Assembly (NCBI RefSeq): GCF_000367345.1
Contig: NZ_BARE01000001.1
Span: forward strand, 62,001 to 126,000
Reading direction: 5' to 3'
Length of the DNA: 64,000 nt
Origin: Sphingobium xenophagum NBRC 107872
Lineage (GTDB): Bacteria; Pseudomonadota; Alphaproteobacteria; Sphingomonadales; Sphingomonadaceae
Shown here: piece by piece, positions 39,074 through 42,802 of the stretch
How the letters are laid out: each line of letters opens with the position of its first letter
How positions within the stretch are numbered: the first letter of the stretch is position 1
Notes under the pieces: model-generated
Database searches by the model: none
What the model saw: the letters and a program-made list of their open reading frames with translations, nothing else
What the model was told of the DNA's origin: nothing
Position numbers and translations under genes: made by a program

Positions 39074-39207
39074 AGGTTGGTTTCCAACCTGGAACCGAAG
39101 CGTGCGACCTTGCGCTTCGGGCGTCCGATTGAACGGGCGGAAGGAACAGGTCTTTTGGTATCCGTCGGTATATGGCGGGTCGCTATTATCCGATGGAATA
39201 CAACAAT

Positions 39208-40998
39208 ATGGCATTTGAAACTCTCCCCCCCATCCTGGCGCAGGCGCTCACGACCAAGGGGTATGAAAACCTGACCGAAGTGCAGGCGTCGGTCATCGAA
39301 CCCGAAGCGATTGGCCGCGACATGATCGTGTCGGCCAAGACCGGGTCGGGCAAGACCGTCGCCTTTGGCCTGGCCATGGCGGGTGAATTGCTGAACGAGG
39401 AAGGCCGCCTTCCCCCGCCCGCCTGGCCGCTGGCGCTGGTCATCGCGCCGACGCGCGAACTGGCATTGCAGGTCAGCCGCGAACTGGAATGGCTCTACGC
39501 CGGAGCGCGGGCGCGCATCGCCACCTGCGTTGGCGGCATGGACGCCGCTCGCGAGCGCAAGGCGCTGGCGCAGGGCGCGCATATCGTCGTCGGCACGCCG
39601 GGCCGCCTGCGCGACCATCTGGAACGCGGCGCGCTCGACCTGTCGGCGCTGAAAACCGCCGTGCTGGACGAGGCCGACGAAATGCTCGACATGGGCTTTC
39701 GCGAAGATCTGGAAGGGATTCTCGACGCCACCCCTGATGGCCGTCGTACCCTGCTATTCTCGGCGACCATGCCAAAGCCGATCGTGGCGCTGGCCCGCCG
39801 TTATCAGAAGGATGCGTTCCAGATCCAGTCCGCCGGCAATGATCGCGGCCATGGCGACATCAGCTATCAGGCGATGACCGTCGCGCCAGCCGACATTGAA
39901 AATGCCGTGGTCAACCTGCTGCGCTTCCATGAGGCGGAGACGGCGATCCTGTTCTGCGCCACGCGCGACAATGTCCGCCATCTCCACGCCAGCCTGACCG
40001 AGCGTGGCTTTGCCGCCGTCGCGCTGTCGGGCGAACATAGCCAGAATGAGCGCAACCATGCACTGCAAGCGCTGCGCGACAAGCGGGCGCGCGTGTGCGT
40101 GGCGACCGACGTGGCCGCGCGCGGCATCGACCTGCCCACGCTGACGCTGGTGGTGCATGTCGAAATCCCGCGTGACGTCGAAACCATGCAGCATCGCTCC
40201 GGTCGTACCGGCCGCGCGGGCAAGAAGGGCACCGCCGTCCTGATCGTCCCCTATCCGCGCCGCCGCCGGGTGGAAGGGATGCTGAAAGGCGCGAAAATCC
40301 CCGTCGAATGGACGTCCGCCCCCACCAAGGAAGCGATCGCCGCGCAGGATGCCGAACGGCTGCGCGCGCGCCTGCTGGAGCCGATGGAACTGGAAGAGTC
40401 CGACTGGGCGCTGGGCGGCGAACTGCTGGAAGCCAAGAGTGCCAAGGAAATCGCGGCCATGCTGGTGCGGTCCGCCCGCGCCGCCCTGCCTGCGCCCGAA
40501 GAGTTGCTGGACGGCAGCGAAGCGCCCGCCCGCCGCGACGGGCCACGTCCCGGTTTTGAGGATACGCAGTGGTTTCGCATCAATATCGGTCGCCGCCAGA
40601 ATGCCGATCCGCGCTGGATCCTGCCGCTGATCTGCCGTCGCGGCCATGTGTCGCGCGGTGACATCGGCGCAATCCGCATCACCACCAACGACACGATGTT
40701 CGAAATTCCCAAGGCGATCGCGTCCAAATTCCTGGCCGCCGTTCGCCGCACCGGCGAAGCGGGTGACGAGGGCGCGGACGTGCTGTTCGATCCGGTCGAT
40801 GGTGCGCCGCGCGAGGAAGCGCGCGAAAAGCGCAAGCAGTTGCGCCCTGCCAATGGCGACCGGCCCAACCGCAGCGGTCCGCCCCGCGGCGGTCCCGGCA
40901 ATTTTTCGCGTGGCGGCGCAGCGCCGCATAGCCCACGCCCGTTCAAGGGCGCTGGCGCGGGCGGCCCGCGCAAGGGTCCGCCGCGCAGCCGGGGGTAA
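39208..40998 (+). CDS. DEAD-box RNA helicase with a DbpA-type RNA-binding domain
   Basis: About 597 residues. The Q motif is LTEVQASVI, Walker A SAKTGSGKT, then PTRELALQ, VLDEADEMLDMGF (DEAD), LFSATMP, and the C-terminal helicase motifs ATDVAARGIDLP and HRSGRTGRAGKKG. After the helicase core, TQWFRINIGRRQNADPRWIL through ITTNDTMFEIPKAIA is a DbpA/CsdA-type RNA-recognition domain. A basic Gly/Arg/Pro tail ends the protein. It probably remodels rRNA or structured mRNA. The start is uncertain: ATG at 39208 (MAFETLPPIL) fits the family best; in-frame ATGs also occur at 39172 and 39193. Confidence 0.93.
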   Translation: MAFETLPPILAQALTTKGYENLTEVQASVIEPEAIGRDMIVSAKTGSGKTVAFGLAMAGELLNEEGRLPPPAWPLALVIAPTRELALQVSRELEWLYAGARARIATCVGGMDAARERKALAQGAHIVVGTPGRLRDHLERGALDLSALKTAVLDEADEMLDMGFREDLEGILDATPDGRRTLLFSATMPKPIVALARRYQKDAFQIQSAGNDRGHGDISYQAMTVAPADIENAVVNLLRFHEAETAILFCATRDNVRHLHASLTERGFAAVALSGEHSQNERNHALQALRDKRARVCVATDVAARGIDLPTLTLVVHVEIPRDVETMQHRSGRTGRAGKKGTAVLIVPYPRRRRVEGMLKGAKIPVEWTSAPTKEAIAAQDAERLRARLLEPMELEESDWALGGELLEAKSAKEIAAMLVRSARAALPAPEELLDGSEAPARRDGPRPGFEDTQWFRINIGRRQNADPRWILPLICRRGHVSRGDIGAIRITTNDTMFEIPKAIASKFLAAVRRTGEAGDEGADVLFDPVDGAPREEAREKRKQLRPANGDRPNRSGPPRGGPGNFSRGGAAPHSPRPFKGAGAGGPRKGPPRSRG

Positions 40999-41018
40999 GT
41001 TGCAAGATACTTACACAT

Positions 41019-41194
41019 CCGTTCGTGCTGAGTAGAGACTGAGCTTGTCGAAGTTGAACAGGTCGGATCGTCCCCCGGACGATCCTGAACCATCCGGGGG
41101 ATGGTTCACCTGTTCAAGTATCGAAGCATCGTGCGCATACGCATCCTTCGATACGCCATTTCGACTTCGCTCAATGGCTACTCAGGACGAACGG
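41019..41194. repeat. 176-bp compound inverted repeat with a perfect three-way junction
   Basis: The outer arms CGTTCGTGCTGAGTAG (41020-41035) and CTACTCAGGACGAACG (41178-41193) pair with one mismatch. Within lies stem P1, TTGAACAGGT (41054-41063) with ACCTGTTCAA (41108-41117). It encloses two perfect 9-bp hairpins: GGATCGTCC/GGACGATCC (41065-41085) and GAACCATCC/GGATGGTTC (41087-41107). It fills the gap between the helicase and photolyase genes. Confidence 0.88.
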
Positions 41195-41263
41195 TGTTGA
41201 TGTAAACCAGCACCCTTTAGAACAGCTAGGAGCAAAAGGGGCCGTCGGTCATTGCTATGAAGC

Positions 41264-42802
41264 ATGACCGACGGCCCCTTTCTCATTCCGGTGCTGGGCG
41301 ACCAGTTGACGCCCGACATCGCCGCGCTGCGGCACGCTGACAAGGCACGCAGCGTCGTGCTGATGATGGAGGTGGCGGATGAGACCCGCTATGTCCGCCA
41401 TCACAAGGCGAAGATCGCCTTCATCCTGTCCGCCATGCGCCACCATGCCGATAGGCTGCGCGCGCTGGGGTGGACAGTCGATTATGTGAAACTCGACGAT
41501 CCGGCCAATAGCGGCAGCTTCACTGCCGAGGTCGCGCGCGCCATCGCGCGGCATGATCCCGCCGCCATTCACGTGACGGAGGCAGGTGAATGGCGGGTGC
41601 GCGCGATGCTGGAAGATTGGGAACTGCGTTTCGGGCTGCCGGTCACGATCCATGAGGATGACCGCTTCCTCTGTTCCCATGCGGAATTCGACAGTTGGGC
41701 GGCGGCGCGCAAGCAGTTGCGGATGGAGTTTTTCTATCGCGACATGCGGCGAAAAACCGGACTGCTGATGACGAGCGCGGGCAATCCGGAGGGTGGCGAA
41801 TGGAATTATGATGCGGAAAATCGCAAGCCCCCGCCGGGGCGCGACCTGTTGATGCCGCAGCCCGTCCGGTTCCGGCCTGACGCGATGACGCAAGATGTGC
41901 TGGCGCTGGTTGCGGATCGCTTTGCCGACCATATCGGCAGCCTTGACCATTTCCATTTCGCTGTGACGCATGAGGAAGCGATGCGCCAGCAGCACCGCTT
42001 TCTGGACGAGGCATTGCCGCGCTTTGGCGACTATCAGGACGCGATGCTGACGGACGAGCCGTTCCTGTGGCACTCGATCCTCTCGCCCTATATCAATGCC
42101 GGGCTGCTCGATCCGCTGGCGCTCTGCCACGCGGTCGAGGCGCGCTATCGGGCGGGCAAGGTGCCGTTGAACGCAGCGGAGGGCTTTGTCCGCCAGATCA
42201 TCGGCTGGCGCGAATATGTGCGTGGCATCTACTGGCATGAAGGGCCGGACTATGCGCAGCGTAACGCGCTGGGGGCGACGCGGCCCCTGCCCGGCTTTTA
42301 CTGGACCGGCGAAACCGACATGCATTGTATGGCGCAGGCCATCGGCCAGACCATCGACCATGGCTATGCCCATCATATCCAGCGACTGATGATCACCGGC
42401 AATTTCGCGCTACTGGCCGGGATCGATCCGCACCAGGTTCATGTCTGGTATCTGGAAGTCTATGCCGACGCCTATGAATGGGTCGAACTGCCCAATACGC
42501 TGGGGATGAGCCAGTTTGCCGATGGCGGCCTGCTGGGGTCAAAGCCCTATGCCGCGAGCGGCGCCTATATCAACCGCATGTCGGATTATTGTAAGGCCTG
42601 CCGCTATGACGTGAAGCAGAAGCTGGGCGAGGATGCGTGTCCTTTCAACGCCCTTTATTGGGATTTCCTGGCCCGCAATGAAAAGCTGCTGGGTGGCAAT
42701 ATGCGGCTGGCCATGCCCTATCGCAGCTGGGCGAAGATGGCGCAGCCCGACCGCGCGGCGATCCGGGATCAGGCCGCGCGGTTTCTGACGTCTCTCGATT
42801 AA
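41264..42802 (+). CDS. phrB: Iron-sulfur bacterial cryptochrome/photolyase (PhrB/CryPro type)
   Basis: A 512-residue flavoprotein of the FeS-BCP group, typified by Agrobacterium PhrB, which repairs (6-4) photoproducts with light. Four Cys residues for a 4Fe-4S cluster are visible: Cys355 (TDMHCM), Cys443 and Cys446 (YCKAC) and Cys459 (EDACPF). Their spacing equals that of PhrB Cys350, 438, 441 and 454. The FAD-binding helical domain includes FVRQIIGWREYVRGIYW and LMITGNFALLAGIDP. Repair of DNA damage is the likely role; a sensory role cannot be ruled out. Its 3' end overlaps the convergent ybaL by 4 bp. Confidence 0.94.
   Translation: MTDGPFLIPVLGDQLTPDIAALRHADKARSVVLMMEVADETRYVRHHKAKIAFILSAMRHHADRLRALGWTVDYVKLDDPANSGSFTAEVARAIARHDPAAIHVTEAGEWRVRAMLEDWELRFGLPVTIHEDDRFLCSHAEFDSWAAARKQLRMEFFYRDMRRKTGLLMTSAGNPEGGEWNYDAENRKPPPGRDLLMPQPVRFRPDAMTQDVLALVADRFADHIGSLDHFHFAVTHEEAMRQQHRFLDEALPRFGDYQDAMLTDEPFLWHSILSPYINAGLLDPLALCHAVEARYRAGKVPLNAAEGFVRQIIGWREYVRGIYWHEGPDYAQRNALGATRPLPGFYWTGETDMHCMAQAIGQTIDHGYAHHIQRLMITGNFALLAGIDPHQVHVWYLEVYADAYEWVELPNTLGMSQFADGGLLGSKPYAASGAYINRMSDYCKACRYDVKQKLGEDACPFNALYWDFLARNEKLLGGNMRLAMPYRSWAKMAQPDRAAIRDQAARFLTSLD

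Follow-up and report, generated by a model that had tools for sequence, protein, structure and literature searches.

A folded 64-nt module nested in REP doublets and other palindromic repeats of the Sphingomonadaceae

The window, the whole 64,000-nt stretch of Sphingobium xenophagum NBRC 107872 DNA analysed here, contains a 176-bp element (41019-41194, CCGTTCG...CGAACGG) flanked by genes for a helicase (39172-40998) and a photolyase-like protein (41264-42802), both gene names being those given by the initial annotation from the sequence alone. That annotation described the element as a compound inverted repeat with a perfect three-way junction, which the sequence and an inverted-repeat search confirm. 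Outer arms at 41019-41044 and 41169-41194, 85% complementary in the inverted-repeat search, enclose a perfect 10-bp base stem (41054-41063 with 41108-41117), which in turn holds two hairpins; C41064 and T41086 are unpaired linkers, and all 28 inner pairs are Watson-Crick. The core is as described, but a third hairpin at 41118-41154 had been overlooked, and the whole exceeds a single junction. None of the other REP-like repeats noticed in the window has a core of this kind; they occur singly or in pairs, and in this respect the architecture is distinct, as had been proposed. The element and its surroundings are composed as follows.

40999-41210, no strand assigned: extra DNA of the window lineage, about 212 nt, located after the helicase stop codon and before the conserved photolyase leader, absent in syntenic relatives
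41019-41053, plus strand: left REP arm CCGTTCGTGCTGAGTAG-AGACTGAGCTTGTCGAAG, with GTAG at 41032-41035; the module replaces the 3' arm of its hairpin
41054-41117, plus strand: 64-nt three-way-junction module (inverted-repeat search, covariance model and copy alignment)
41054-41063, plus strand: 5' side of the module base stem, pairing with 41108-41117 (inverted-repeat search)
41065-41085, plus strand: module hairpin 1 (HP1), 9 bp with loop CCC, arms 41065-41073 and 41077-41085 (inverted-repeat search)
41087-41107, plus strand: module hairpin 2 (HP2), 9 bp with loop GGG, arms 41087-41095 and 41099-41107 (the inverted-repeat search lists one further pair)
41108-41117, plus strand: 3' side of the module base stem (inverted-repeat search)
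41118-41154, plus strand: third hairpin GTATCGAAG...CTTCGATAC of the REP doublet, equal to the central hairpin of the short form (inverted-repeat search and genus comparison)
41155-41194, minus strand: right REP arm, reading CCGTTCGTCCTGA-GTAG-CCATTGAGCGAAGTCGAAATGG on this strand, with the GTAG complement at 41178-41181 (sequence and genus comparison)

The 176 nt fold far more stably than shuffled versions, both as RNA (-101.5 kcal/mol against -53.6 +/- 4.3 in shuffles, z -11.0) and as DNA (z -11.3). Folded with DNA parameters, the window core has its predicted energy minimum in the two-hairpin junction; RNA parameters, by contrast, favour a long HP1-HP2 hairpin for the window copy by 1.6 kcal/mol (-42.9 against -41.3 for the junction). 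This long hairpin was rejected as an alternative fold. Although 84% of its cells pair, its HP1-HP2 part shows zero both-side changes across copies, whereas the three-way junction does show them. The very stable fold and the position of the window copy just downstream of the helicase stop codon would suit a functional RNA or an element acting at the RNA level, such as a bidirectional terminator, an mRNA stabiliser or a small RNA domain. We consider this explanation improbable. In Rfam, the whole window gave only two tRNAs at gathering score, and the seven matches within 40900-41300 were all below threshold.

Comparison with 94 Sphingobium genomes shows the outer frame to be a widespread REP doublet, some 100-115 bp long. 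Its short form, read by inspection, is CCGTTCGTGCTGA-GTAG-GGxCTGAGC...GTCGAAG-xCCC-GTATCGAAG...CTTCGATAC-GCCATTTCGACTTCGCTCAATGG-CTAC-TCAGGACGAACGG. Where the short relatives have GTCGAAG-xCCC-GTATCG or something similar, the window copy has GTCGAAG-[64 nt]-GTATCG; in core-bearing doublets, the core thus substitutes for the 4-nt 3' arm of one REP hairpin. GTAG is found at 41032-41035 and, on the minus strand, at 41181-41178, followed each time by a TGAGC...GTCGAA hairpin, the left one of which has its 3' arm replaced by the module. Judged by these sequence features, the outer frame is a GTAG REP doublet: GTAG stands beside an imperfect palindrome, and two inverted REPs form a dispersed hairpin unit. 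With the whole 176-bp element as query, matches were obtained in 58 of the 94 genus genomes at E <= 1e-4, most of the listed ones covering the right half only, and the 64-nt core alone matched 17 of the 94. The core lies in the left arm of the Sphingobium doublet in most copies and in the right arm in L072 and L073; it is inverted in L070, L071 and L089. Some Sphingobium doublets (L036, L065 and L062) carry extra hairpins of other sequence, inserted in either the left or the right arm, which shows that the 64-nt module is not the only nested insert.

At the window site itself, six relatives with the same gene order (L303-L308) lack the element, the helicase stop running directly into the photolyase leader, and a seventh (L302), cut off by its contig end, lacks it as well. 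Absence from the six relatives also speaks against a role as functional RNA. The photolyase-like start codon (41264) lies inside a perfect 18-bp inverted repeat at 41235-41281 (AAAGGGGCCGTCGGTCAT...ATGACCGACGGCCCCTTT). This leader hairpin is kept by eye in L302-L308, with both-side changes in some of them, e.g., L303 and L306, which suggests a leader that masks the start codon.

Relatives of the module were collected in two rounds. A pattern search for hairpin 1 in sequence records yielded at least 119 stretches, 80 loci of which were analysed. Alignment A1 has 67 rows, 13 of the 80 loci having been left out (six duplicates and seven with off-geometry, L152 and L220 looking false), and the window copy was taken for L164, to which it is identical. 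Covariance model R1 was built from A1. Of 36 copies found with the model, L278, L283 and L167:5317 were dropped for shifted registers and two as duplicates; the other 31, added to A1, make up a set of 98 copies, outside which there are further covariance-model matches. Most of HP1, together with the CCC loop and the linker T, was set by the A1 pattern, a constraint that R1 inherited, so the conservation of these parts is partly selected for. The C linker (64/67 in A1) and the GGG loop (63/67) occupy positions that the pattern did not set.

Standard pairs make up 97.1% of the pair cells in the 67 distinct copies. Both-side changes affect 344 cells, as against 99 +/- 10 for shuffled versions and 20-47 for slid structures, and the pairs with a both-side change (17) are only modestly above the shuffles (14.4; 14 of 500 reach 17). 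Some covariance-model copies have wholly different HP1 letters, e.g., GGTCATGCC-CCC-GGCATGACC and GAATGTGCC-CCC-GGCACATTC. The 98 distinct copies have 2653 Watson-Crick cells (96%), 32 G.T, 36 A.C and 32 other cells; two or more Watson-Crick types occur at 24 of the 28 pairs, and all four at each of the six outer base-stem pairs. Within this set, the 64-nt copies have an average pairwise identity of 0.69 and a minimum of 0.41, while the linkers are C in 95/98 and T in 98/98 copies, and the loops are CCC in 96/98 and GGG in 92/98. A scan by geometry alone of 1.72 Mb of DNA, largely collected through the modules themselves, found 130 distinct two-hairpin junctions, the loops being CCC/GGG in 118; block-shuffled copies of 250 of the loci gave none. 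The module is a dispersed family in the Sphingomonadaceae, which keeps shape, linkers and loops while the stem letters drift. Since the unpaired letters are among the most conserved, something appears to read them. Deviating forms also occur: L069 has lost hairpin 2, L347 is a single-hairpin form of about 49 nt, and L285 and L288 are longer relatives whose base stem is apparently extended to about 20 bp.

These numbers bear on two of the alternatives. The similar frequency of G.T (32) and A.C (36) cells argues against selection as an RNA of one fixed strand. The copies are, however, not oriented by transcription, and equal numbers could also result from RNA used in mixed orientations or from palindrome repair. 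The latter belongs to an explanation that needs no dedicated enzyme: template switching or palindrome repair at stalled forks, together with gene conversion between repeats that share arms, would spread the module, and repair would keep the hairpins perfect. Near-perfect pairing without a wobble preference is the outcome expected of palindrome correction. Repair alone, on the other hand, is not expected to keep the identity of loops and linkers, which is seen in the C linker and GGG loop of A1, both outside the pattern, and in the 118 of 130 junctions with CCC/GGG loops. Overall, we regard this explanation as unlikely, albeit one to be taken seriously.

With the covariance model, matches at E 0.001, a few of them weak, were found in 45 of 298 Sphingomonadaceae genomes, belonging to 19 of 96 genera. 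In a sample of the class, two of 289 genomes matched, both within the Sphingomonadaceae; no match was found in the other 287, among which two are family members and the rest, where listed, belong to other families. An order sample gave 21 matches among 196 genomes; apart from a weak one in G782 (E 5.8e-4), they all belong to the family. Copy numbers per genome are lower bounds, as the best 17 (family), 18 (class) and 27 (order) candidates were scored. The 80 loci of the pattern search are, by title, nearly all sphingomonad (Sphingomonas, Sphingobium, Sphingopyxis, Sphingosinicella and MAGs). L150, L158, L161, L207 and L170, titled Bacillus sp. 2B10 or Arthrobacter sp. TPD3018, contain sphingomonad-type repeats along with modules, and these records are probably mislabelled genomes. 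In one Syntrophomonadaceae pattern match, the junction is not formed. Six stretches in IMG/VR carry the module; two of them share sequence around it, and one agrees in length and match position with a Sphingobium contig from the pattern search. Two sphingomonad plasmid records matched, one of which, a Sphingomonas plasmid, has the module. The 176-nt query had no match in a phage collection, nor did the 64-nt query in E. coli.

Chance, or a one-off rearrangement of simpler repeats, is ruled out by these relatives (58/94 and 17/94 genomes in the genus, 45/298 in the family). The initial annotation had named a missing second junction copy and missing covariation as signs of such an event; instead, numerous covarying copies exist in other sphingomonad genomes. 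The covariance-model search it proposed likewise returned many copies with the same junction and strong covariation, but all of them elsewhere, the window's own genome holding a single module. A single copy gives no indication of recent activity in this strain.

Outside Sphingobium, the module sits, by eye, mostly in other inverted repeats. The junction is thus a separate module, which also occurs in other repeats, and not a property of REP arms. Its insertion sites were compared with empty counterparts in a gap test, in which the 13-nt flanks of 77 modules (duplicates included) were sought in all collected DNA, separated by 0-14 nt and each allowed at most two mismatches. A counterpart was found for 62 of the 77 modules and none for 15. 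The commonest gap was exactly 4 nt in 51 of the 62; in the other 11, it was 3 nt in four, 5 nt in three, and 0, 2, 9 or 14 nt in one each. After shuffling of the right flank, 10 of the 77 had any counterpart and one had it at gap 4. Among modules with at least three counterparts, the gap was 4 nt in 38 of 44, 3 nt in three and 5 nt in three. Of 21 further modules, 13 had a counterpart and eight had none; here, gap 4 was found in 8/13, gap 3 in four and gap 7 in one.

At a lenient threshold, the flanks of the 51 gap-4 modules form 12 clusters, which by eye represent at least five host types, some of them resting on one or two counterparts. Besides the REP frames and the murD palindrome CCCCTCCCCTGAAGGGG, there are repeats centred on GGCACGG-GGAG-GGGG, a group centred on CCCCGCGAAGG-CGGG and GAGACC-CCAG, and a type with CTCGACG-GACG. 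When 45 distinct empty contexts, many from one REP family, were folded as DNA, the 4 nt lay wholly in a hairpin arm in 37, partly in six and outside in two. Both orientations of the module occur at one and the same host site, e.g., in L168 and L170. The module therefore usually resides in one arm of a small host hairpin, where it replaces 4 nt, in either orientation and in several host palindromes, some of which lie in genes. The recurrence of one and the same 64-for-4 change, in either orientation, across five or more different host palindromes argues against the explanation without a dedicated enzyme.

A filled and an empty site can be compared directly in the orthologous pair G038 (L073) and G092 (L056), which are identical at 762 of 805 aligned bases (94.7%). 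Their REP doublets are identical except that CCAT in one corresponds to the 64-nt module in the other. Among the eight best full-length Sphingobium copies, chosen by overall similarity, the core is identical (64/64) in seven, which match the eighth at 62/64, while the frames are 80-89% identical in 27 of the 28 pairs and 99% in one. Cores that are more alike than their frames, and the long arms that REP copies have in common, are also what the repair explanation would lead one to expect. Gene conversion between REP copies could explain the spread within one family of host repeats, including the L073/L056 pair and the identical cores.

Some of the host palindromes lie within genes. In genus g91, a murD match was found in 79 of 81 genomes and is split in many of them. 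Twenty of the loci with a split match (L339-L358) were analysed; every one has additional residues, in frame and at a single place, which by eye correspond to inverted repeats in the 14 whose DNA was inspected. The murD of g91 is thus an in-frame insertion hotspot for several different palindromic repeats at one place. The covariance model was run on four of the 20 loci. In L348, one module is nested in the murD palindrome with the frame open, where it replaces CTCC for a net gain of 60 nt or 20 codons. L349 holds two modules of opposite orientation in murD palindromes, again in an open frame, which is a further argument against a functional RNA. The murD frame is open in L159 as well, whose module lies between perfect inverted flanks of 29 bp, whereas the modules of L189 and L206 appear to break the frame of another gene.

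A third alternative sees the element as a kind of REPIN that is moved by a RAYT (REP-associated Y1 transposase), with a recognition structure that includes the junction. The outer arms, with GTAG beside a hairpin in an inverted doublet, are what such an element would show. A gene for a RAYT-type transposase, the search for which had been suggested at the outset, finds no support in the window's own genome: PF01797 (Y1_Tnp) has no match there at E 0.001 (99.99% completeness, 138 contigs), and the REP frame is thus without a cognate RAYT gene in that genome. At the same threshold, PF01797 is without a match in 32 of the 45 module carriers. In the family sample, it was found in 13/45 carriers and 26/253 other genomes (Fisher OR 3.5, p 0.003, uncorrected for relatedness or genome size), an association in favour of a RAYT, whereas the genus shows none (4/17 carriers against 19/77 others, p 1.0). 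No module was present in the 13 Y1 loci examined (31.8 kb), and the module also occurs in repeats that have no GTAG REP arms. In five of ten longer, RAYT-like Y1 genes of Sphingomonadaceae (L370-L379), a GTG(A/C)CAGTTTACT-like end takes, by eye, the place of REPs on one or both sides; these genes resemble the TIR-flanked group as presented in PMC3733652. Mobilisation by a RAYT is accordingly a poor candidate, with little probability in our estimation. A simple motif search showed no clear Y1 gene in L381 and L382. When ORFs within 1.5 kb of modules were clustered, the 25 largest clusters consisted mainly of the repeats themselves or of ordinary genes, and no transposase was recognised among them by eye.

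The initial annotation had offered three functions for the element: a terminator, a stable RNA or a structure recognised by a transposase. The mobile-element option fits best because of the empty orthologous site, the nesting, the replacement of 4 nt, the use of either orientation and the cores resembling one another more closely than the frames do. Neither the terminator nor the RNA option is supported, since G.T and A.C are equally frequent and one gene (murD of L349) holds modules in opposite orientations. The reading we prefer, with a probability of roughly 0.55, is that the 176-bp element is a sphingomonad GTAG-type REP doublet with a nested, independent 64-nt module, which would be a non-autonomous mobile element recognised by its shape and moved by an enzyme. 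According to this reading, the module would be recognised as a folded single strand, either on the lagging-strand template or in an extruded cruciform. An enzyme supplied in trans would then cut the host hairpin inside its arm and swap about 4 nt for the module. Within one family of host repeats, the module may also have spread by gene conversion through shared arms.

The findings suggest an undescribed kind of tiny mobile DNA that is recognised by its fold; in a literature search among open-licence papers, none was recognised as describing the module. A broader proposal, which we put forward as tentative and rather doubtful, is a new class of mobile DNA. Its enzyme would read the folded junction (equal arms, CCC/GGG loops, C and T linkers) almost independently of the stem sequence and exchange the module for 4 nt in any suitable hairpin arm, so that palindromic repeats would serve as nested docking sites. 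Small palindromic repeats are common in bacteria, and how they spread and maintain their palindromy are mostly open questions. The rigid shape, the free stems, the sharp 64-for-4 rule and the matched filled and empty sites make the mechanism testable here, and the answer would be either a shape-reading enzyme or unexpectedly precise repair. In-frame nesting in murD also represents a route by which repeats enter essential proteins.

Several known systems share features with the element. Like the REPINs and BIMEs outlined in PMC3116915, the outer frame is a dispersed, non-autonomous, inverted doublet of GTAG-adjacent REP hairpins. The module, which is not itself a REP, differs from them as they are characterised there: it lies within other palindromes, is defined by its shape and not by its sequence, is linked to no RAYT, consists of two hairpins on a base stem and, by inspection, has no GTAG at either end. 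GTAG-tagged palindromic repeats, as surveyed in PMC3733652, which leaves sphingomonads unnamed in its main text, likewise have their counterpart in the GTAG beside a hairpin at each end of the REP frame, whereas the module itself is without this tag. The insertion sequences ISPsy8, ISPpu9, ISPpu10, ISRm19 and ISRm22 encode a transposase and use REPs as specific targets, according to the account in PMC1525189. Palindromic repeats are insertion targets in both cases, but the module, at 64 nt, encodes no enzyme and takes the place of 4 nt within an arm. Rickettsia palindromic elements, as portrayed in PMC10969869, are small (about 150 bp) and lie in frame inside unrelated bacterial genes. The modules in L348, L349 and L159 are comparable by their features, being small palindromic elements in frame within a gene; in contrast to the Rickettsia elements of that account, each is nested in another palindrome of murD (net +60 nt in L348), is about 64 nt long and has a fixed junction geometry.

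The module does not fit a classical MITE of a DDE insertion sequence. It has no fixed terminal repeats, as its six outer stem pairs occur in four Watson-Crick types each, and there is no target-site duplication: the orthologous pair shows replacement of 4 nt without any duplication, with which 51 of the 62 gap tests agree. Integron attC sites and the ends of IS200/IS605 elements are recognised as folded single-stranded DNA, structure and extrahelical bases outweighing sequence. To these the module bears a resemblance, by which it may be likened to them and no further. Overall, the module would work like small non-autonomous mobile DNA, and its target rule is reminiscent of the REP-targeting insertion sequences and of the Rickettsia elements within genes.
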